Source: Enorma burkinafasonensis (GTDB lineage: Bacteria; Actinomycetota; Coriobacteriia; Coriobacteriales; Coriobacteriaceae). Taken from it: a stretch of 64,000 bases of DNA. Both the position numbers and the translations under genes were made by a program. The stretch's first letter is position 1. Every line of letters starts with the position of its first letter. Below the pieces are notes generated by a model that was not told the DNA's origin, did not search any database, and worked only from the letters and a program-made list of their open reading frames with translations. The stretch covers positions 1 to 64,000 of the forward strand of contig NZ_LR597506.1 in NCBI RefSeq assembly GCF_902150035.1, written 5' to 3'. Shown here piece by piece: positions 50,401 to 51,220 of this stretch.

Positions 50401-50576
50401 ACCCATCCATCCCAAAGTCTAACCATGGTGCGAGCTGTATCGCTCAGGTGAATATGGAGAGGCAGCCAAAGAGAATCGTCCTCGGGGTCAGTCTTCGCCC
50501 AGAGAGCGCGAGCTTGTCTAGAAAGCTCATCAATTCCGTTCGCCGGCATTCCGACTCGAGTCGTGAGCTCACTCAT
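47460..50576 (-). CDS. cas3: CRISPR nuclease-helicase Cas3
   Basis: A 1038-residue fused HD nuclease/SF2 helicase that shreds the target after Cascade binding. The HD domain has [11 protein letters not shown] (41-51) and GAHDIGK (H89, D90). The helicase has [20 protein letters not shown] (a DECH box), [10 protein letters not shown] and a C-terminal helicase half with [30 protein letters not shown]. The ATG at 50576 overlaps the stop of the exonuclease gene before it (ATGA). The E. coli gene has an independent promoter; here it is second in the operon. Confidence 0.95.
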   Translation of the reverse strand: [1038 protein letters not shown]

Positions 50577-51220
50577 CTTTCCCGCCTCTCCCGTGTCTTC
50601 ATTCGAGAATAACGTGCCACGACGTCCAGGTAGGCTGTAGACGACGGGAATCCGCATCTAGCGGGATCTTTCCCAATCATGGCGCAGAAGCACTCTAGCG
50701 TCGCTCGCGCATCCTCGAGCGCATCATGGGCTCGAAAGGAGACGCCGTAGAATTGTGCACAATAGGCTAGGGAGACCCAGGCGTATCTCTGTCGGTCGGC
50801 ATCCCAGCGCCCCACAACGGGGGCAAACTCGCGCATCACATCAAAAACTGCAGCGTTTCCGAAAGAAATGTCTGCCGCCTGGAGGAACGAGAGATCGAAA
50901 GGAGCGTTGTAACCAACAATGAGGCCAGCGCCCTCGAAAGCCCTCTCAATTTCCGGTTTCAACGAAGCCAACAAGGGACAGCTTTCCACCATTGAAGGAG
51001 AGATGCCATGCACACGCTGCGCAGAAGGCCAACTCGAGCGGCGTTCGGGCCGCACATAGCGAGATAGCATGGGCTCTCCGTCGCCGCGAACGAGGGCGAC
51101 CTGAAGCACTTCATCAGCACACGGGTCGAAACCCGTAGTCTCAATATCCAGACACACGACCTTACGATGCGAAAGCTCCCTCAGAGCCGTGATATCCCCC
51201 GTTTTGTACCACAGCCTCAT
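50573..51220 (-). CDS. DEDDh 3'-5' exonuclease at the head of the cas operon
   Basis: A 215-residue DnaQ-fold exonuclease: Exo I DIETTG (D25, E27), Exo II YNAPFD (D109) and Exo III HDALED (H165, D170), so all four acidic ligands and the general-base histidine are present. It is not the Pol III epsilon pattern in length or context. The stop overlaps the cas3 ATG, so it is translationally coupled to cas3. DEDDh domains fused to Cas2, or recruited host DnaQ-type exonucleases, trim prespacers in some type I-E systems; here the domain is a stand-alone gene. Role in trimming is inferred from position. RBS GGGGACGCG precedes the ATG. Confidence 0.9.
   Translation of the reverse strand: MRLWYKTGDITALRELSHRKVVCLDIETTGFDPCADEVLQVALVRGDGEPMLSRYVRPERRSSWPSAQRVHGISPSMVESCPLLASLKPEIERAFEGAGLIVGYNAPFDLSFLQAADISFGNAAVFDVMREFAPVVGRWDADRQRYAWVSLAYCAQFYGVSFRAHDALEDARATLECFCAMIGKDPARCGFPSSTAYLDVVARYSRMKTRERRER

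Follow-up and report, generated by a model that had tools for sequence, protein, structure and literature searches.

A separate, predicted DEDDh exonuclease gene at the head of type I-E CRISPR-Cas operons in Coriobacteriia and a correlation of DEDDh content with spacer length

The type I-E CRISPR-Cas operon of Enorma burkinafasonensis starts with a separate gene encoding a predicted DEDDh exonuclease. This gene is real, conserved and CRISPR-linked; it is of a known ancillary type, in an arrangement that is new. We consider it probable that its product acts in trans as a trimmer of prespacers for the type I-E Cas1-Cas2 integrase. Across Coriobacteriia, DEDDh content is correlated with a one-base difference in spacer length, which is a new lead and the part of the analysis worth following. 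Here, we describe the locus in the window, that is, the entire stretch of 64,000 nucleotides that was analysed (contig NZ_LR597506.1, positions 1 to 64,000), and compare it with related and unrelated systems.

The gene (Table 1) is an intact open reading frame that begins with ATG and encodes 215 amino acids. The protein is matched by Pfam RNase_T over residues 22-178 (E=1.2e-19) and by the PADLOC model of Cas-associated DEDDh proteins (E=8.5e-31), and it carries D25, E27, D109, H165 and D170, which are (nearly) invariant across 14 relatives. In a structural comparison, its AlphaFold model (pLDDT 94.9) scores highest against the Pol III epsilon exonuclease of E. coli (Z 18.8); the S. thermophilus Cas2 DnaQ domain (8h18) scores Z 17.6. 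Judged by modeled fold and D/E/D/H/D active site, the product is a DEDDh (DnaQ-like) protein with predicted 3'-5' exonuclease activity. The only other DEDDh domain in this genome belongs to a DinG-like homologue, in which it is combined with a helicase domain; there is no second free DEDDh. A search for a consensus sigma-70 promoter 5' of the gene found none.

Downstream lies the complete type I-E set, in the order DEDDh-cas3-cse1-cse2-cas7-cas5-cas6-cas1-cas2-array. The stop codon TGA of the DEDDh gene (50573-50575) and the in-frame ATG of cas3 at 50576 share four nucleotides (ATGA). A longer alternative open reading frame for cas3 begins at 50657, and homology with relatives starts near 50576; the ATG at the latter position is likely to be the start codon. 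Thus, the original prediction of a separate gene with all five catalytic residues, placed at the head of a type I-E operon and overlapping cas3 by four bases, is borne out by the reading frame, Pfam, PADLOC, the alignment and the cas genes that follow. The leader side of the array adjoins cas2, and the spacers (67 of 32 nt and one of 31 nt) give a period of 61 bp.

Table 1. Features of the type I-E locus in the window and relics of the DEDDh gene in related genomes
Feature	Coordinates	Strand	Remarks
Stand-alone DEDDh 3'-5' exonuclease (predicted), first gene of operon	50573..51220	-	Pfam, PADLOC, AlphaFold, alignment
cas3 (HD nuclease-helicase)	47460..50576	-	ATG at 50576
cse1/cas8e	45671..47365	-	start approximate
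cse2/cas11e	44999..45655	-	
cas7e	43855..45165	-	ORF coordinates; true start internal to ORF
cas5e	43109..43852	-	
cas6e	42399..43100	-	
cas1e	41414..42430	-	start approximate
cas2e, 121 aa	41042..41407	-	DEDDh domain absent; C-terminal tail GWSxASKxxKARKY
CRISPR array	36780..40955	-	69 repeats of 29 nt
DEDDh relics at deleted or decayed type I-E operons	L078:10001-10585, L079:6533-7117, L197:5939-6394		

We searched the Cas3 protein of the window against about 400 Coriobacteriia genomes and then against a further family-level set, and annotated the surroundings of the resulting 33 type I-E loci in regions of up to 20 kb. The comparison of gene order that had been proposed with the original prediction shows that the DEDDh gene is kept beside cas3 in relatives: in 13 of the 33 loci, it is the gene immediately 5' of cas3, and all 13 encode a short Cas2. 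Eight loci encode a Cas2-DEDDh fusion (about 290-350 aa) without a separate exonuclease gene, and the other 12, including L048 and the incomplete locus L061, have neither form beside cas3. Because genomes of this class seldom carry more than one or two genes of the DEDDh subfamily, adjacency in 13 of 33 loci exceeds the chance expectation; the cas-linked gene is nonetheless dispensable, given that 11 fusion-less loci carry none. At L048 (G249, Olsenella porci), where the array has a period of 61 bp, a member of the same subfamily is located beyond the array (L048:1094-1687), not upstream of cas3.

Mapped onto a tree built from six Cas proteins, the separate gene marks one clade of close relatives, in which it was lost once (L051), and is found again in a distant pair of Coriobacteriia MAGs. 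The main groups of the DEDDh tree and the cas tree match, showing that the gene is co-inherited with the operon. Its dN/dS of 0.11-0.18, similar to that of the neighbouring cas genes, shows purifying selection. Furthermore, loss of the operon is accompanied by loss or breakage of the gene. In Thermophilibacter provencensis and Olsenella uli An733 (L078 and L079), it is cut short at codon 146 and no cas genes remain, and in G335, a broken DEDDh gene adjoins a cas3 fragment. In Collinsella ihumii, the gene is frameshifted near its start, and the genome has further DEDDh genes. This long co-inheritance, selection and joint decay, together with the recurrence of other DEDDh lineages in the same setting (see below), make it very unlikely that the gene is a passenger, namely, a host exonuclease stranded 5' of cas3 without a role in CRISPR, even though the family also exists outside CRISPR, as orphans of the subfamily distant from cas genes, many of them with a C-terminal membrane segment.

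The distance between the DEDDh gene and cas3 is variable, from -16 to about +180 nt overall, with -4 nt in the window and -8 nt in two near relatives. The 4-nt overlap is thus not a conserved trait, and overlaps of 4 or 8 nt elsewhere become gaps that reach about 180 nt. As a general rule, the earlier proposal of a fixed translation ratio between the exonuclease and Cas3 is therefore weak.

Stand-alone and fused DEDDh domains were never found together (0/13 stand-alone loci, with eight other loci fused; Fisher p=0.0096), and they belong to different lineages. The domains of the Cas2 fusions form a clade of their own (support 97/91) that is shared with fusions from Lactobacillaceae, and the stand-alone proteins form a separate clade (support 98/96) that includes orphans distant from type I-E cas genes. 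In the window, Cas2 has no DEDDh fused to it, and the DEDDh protein falls outside the fusion lineage. A third, unrelated DEDDh gene heads a type I-E operon in another actinobacterial family and overlaps cas3 by 8 nt (L211:446-1093, G617). The presence of unrelated DEDDh lineages at type I-E operons implies that recruitment recurred, and suggests that systems lacking Cas4 have been selected to carry a trimmer of their own. The tail of Cas2 in the window, with the motif GWSxASK, was considered as a docking peptide for DEDDh or a scar, and this was rejected since the tail is found with and without any DEDDh.

Nine of the orphans (L072, L073, L074, L083, L085, L088, L156, L157 and L158) are of the same subfamily and have a C-terminal hydrophobic segment, which in one orphan is a TM2 domain; by sequence, such proteins are apparently membrane-anchored exonucleases.

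Type I-C systems provide a comparison between the two processes that the gene could serve. A DEDDh gene of the kind seen in the window was found beside the locus in none of 47 type I-C genomes from the same sample, compared with 13 of the 33 type I-E loci (p=1.8e-6); three of the 47 genomes carry a relative away from the locus. Cas4, a known prespacer processor, is encoded by type I-C and absent from type I-E (PMC10284694). As to adaptation or INTERFERENCE, adaptation is favoured, because the gene is absent beside type I-C loci and is complementary to the Cas2 fusions. The DEDDh protein could instead help interference by degrading single strands coming from Cas3, with no action on spacers, and adjacency to cas3 would then reflect this function. 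The two genes do adjoin, overlapping in the window and in two near relatives, and the unrelated DEDDh gene of L211 also overlaps cas3. However, a helper of Cas3 might also be expected beside type I-C loci, which use Cas3 as well and lack the gene; the partner of the fusions is Cas2, an adaptation subunit; and spacer length correlates with DEDDh content. We therefore regard a role confined to interference as unlikely.

The period of the array could be read in 31 Coriobacteriia type I-E loci. The mode is 61 bp in 25 arrays and 62 bp in six, which corresponds to spacers of 32 and 33 nt, respectively. Each of the six genomes with 62 bp (G026, G057, G204, G211, G226 and G261) has a single RNase_T protein of about 1000 aa, which was called DinG-like via its homologue in the genome of the window, where RNase_T and helicase domains are combined. 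A DEDDh other than DinG is present in 25/25 of the 61-bp genomes, and DinG is alone in 6/6 of the 62-bp genomes (Fisher p=1.4e-6, ancestry ignored). Simulation of independent traits with six zero-tips reproduced this pattern in 0 of 21,059 cases. Among the 61-bp genomes, the DEDDh is beside the cas locus or fused into it, except in G164, G219 and G224, where it is encoded elsewhere. The rule counts any DEDDh except DinG and was set partly after G224 and G164 were known; when only cas-linked DEDDh genes are counted, it fits 22/22 and 6/9. Two periods were predicted before they were read: for G204, 62 bp, with a measured value of mostly 62, and for G219, 61 bp, with a measured value of 61 in an array of five repeats (L047 and L057 are equally short). 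G165, with DinG only and a predicted period of 62, is outside the count, as no array was found in it and its contig stops after cas2.

The correlation could also be a lineage effect: the ruler formed by Cas1-Cas2 would be one base different in some lineages, and DEDDh content would play no part in this. Such an alternative opposes the interpretation of spacer length, not the trimming role itself. Independent pairs agree with the rule in 4/4 cases, and with just four independent changes the sign test gives p=0.125. Outside the class, the rule is violated by a distant type I-E actinobacterium (G430, L224), in which no RNase_T match was found in the genome, yet the period is 61 bp. Conversely, no alignment column of Cas1 or Cas2 separates 61 from 62, so that a residue of these proteins was rejected as the cause of the difference. 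The period follows DEDDh content in L051, where the gene was lost within the DEDDh clade, and in each of L048, L050 and L057, from the other clade. Taken with these observations, a lineage effect appears rather doubtful, though less so than a role confined to interference. G430 also rejects a universal rule by which absence of DEDDh means 62 bp, and the rule is accordingly limited in scope; all 14 further arrays that were read from other Actinomycetota have a period of 61 bp, with DEDDh genes in 13 of the 14 genomes.

Retention of an additional PAM base in the 62-bp arrays was likewise rejected: a single PAM-derived base is present alike in both classes, and none beyond it is conserved. Because this base at the repeat end is equal in the two classes, the extra base of the 62-bp arrays probably sits at the PAM-distal end. 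We give an even chance to the possibility that, in Coriobacteriia, DEDDh exonucleases determine spacer length, with a DEDDh encoded in the cas locus, or another free one, removing one more base from the PAM-distal 3' overhang and so giving spacers of 32 instead of 33 nt.

The proposed role as prespacer trimmer would involve the following steps. DNA of the invader would be fragmented by Cas3 and host nucleases, and a prespacer would be captured by Cas1-Cas2, with about 33 nt protected. The DEDDh exonuclease would then remove the protruding 3' end as far as the protected footprint; where such an enzyme is missing, a different nuclease would leave one more base at the end away from the PAM. Being next to cas3 probably means that the gene is expressed along with those for interference and adaptation; a physical partnership between DEDDh and Cas3 is possible, and a specific transfer of Cas3 products to the exonuclease, as in primed adaptation, may occur. 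The part of the original prediction that linked the exonuclease to spacer trimming is favoured by three observations: the gene and the Cas2 fusions are complementary, type I-C loci, which carry Cas4, lack it, and spacer length correlates with DEDDh content.

Several known systems resemble the one described here. One group, the Cas2/DEDDh fusions, trims prespacers in vitro and also takes off the PAM (PMC10284694). The fusions related to Megasphaera NM10 (PDB 8FY9-8FYD) and S. thermophilus Cas2-DnaQ (8H18/8H2F) share the DEDDh fold, type I-E context and adaptation without Cas4, whereas in the window, the DEDDh is separate, heads the operon, accompanies an unfused Cas2 and comes from another DEDDh lineage. 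Stand-alone DEDDh exonucleases are mentioned as widespread ancillary genes of CRISPR-Cas types in the portion of PMC10284694 that cites Makarova 2020, and the type of gene is therefore already known. The corresponding PADLOC model (PDLC01247) matches the protein from the window, as well as orphans; separate, located inside a cas locus and recurrent among relatives, the former is of the CRISPR-associated kind. It differs from the known ancillary genes in its fixed position 5' of cas3 across a clade and in the link to spacer length. Within the literature searched, with most subscription papers outside it, we found neither a description of the head-of-operon arrangement nor a report of an effect of DEDDh on spacer length; the claim of a different arrangement thus stands for the position of the gene and not for its stand-alone nature. 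Papers on Salmonella and Cronobacter that mention DEDDh together with type I-E genes (PMC7698835, PMC9201451) concern genome-wide matches, not this layout.

The E. coli enzymes DnaQ and ExoT (RNase T) are also DEDDh exonucleases and structural neighbours of the protein from the window, but are host housekeeping enzymes encoded outside the cas operon. Both trim 3' ends bound by Cas1-Cas2 in vitro (PMC9699676 and references therein) and are inessential in vivo, and deletion of both left prespacer ends unchanged (PMC9699676). Redundancy is a possible explanation, E. coli having at least 13 3'-5' nucleases that possibly mask one another, and the set of nucleases that makes prespacer 3' ends in vivo "is yet to be determined" (PMC9699676). 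Coriobacteriia, with few such enzymes, offer a natural experiment in which trimmers are encoded by cas loci, fused or absent. Spacer length appears to track these states, which makes the question of 3' ends in vivo testable within one clade and with a one-base readout. If DEDDh exonucleases do determine spacer length there, every array would be a record of the nuclease that finished its spacers.

An AAA ATPase gene (51362-52486) lies 5' of the operon in the window and is also present in several relatives. It was rejected as a component of the system: the close relative L042 keeps the operon and has no ATPase, which makes this gene a variable neighbour. A megablast search of the array spacers from the window against INPHARED returned no phage matches. 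Among these spacers (numbered from zero at 36780), 24, 50 and 66 are near-identical, with equal boundaries and bases that differ near one end, and 44 and 45 are exact duplicates side by side.
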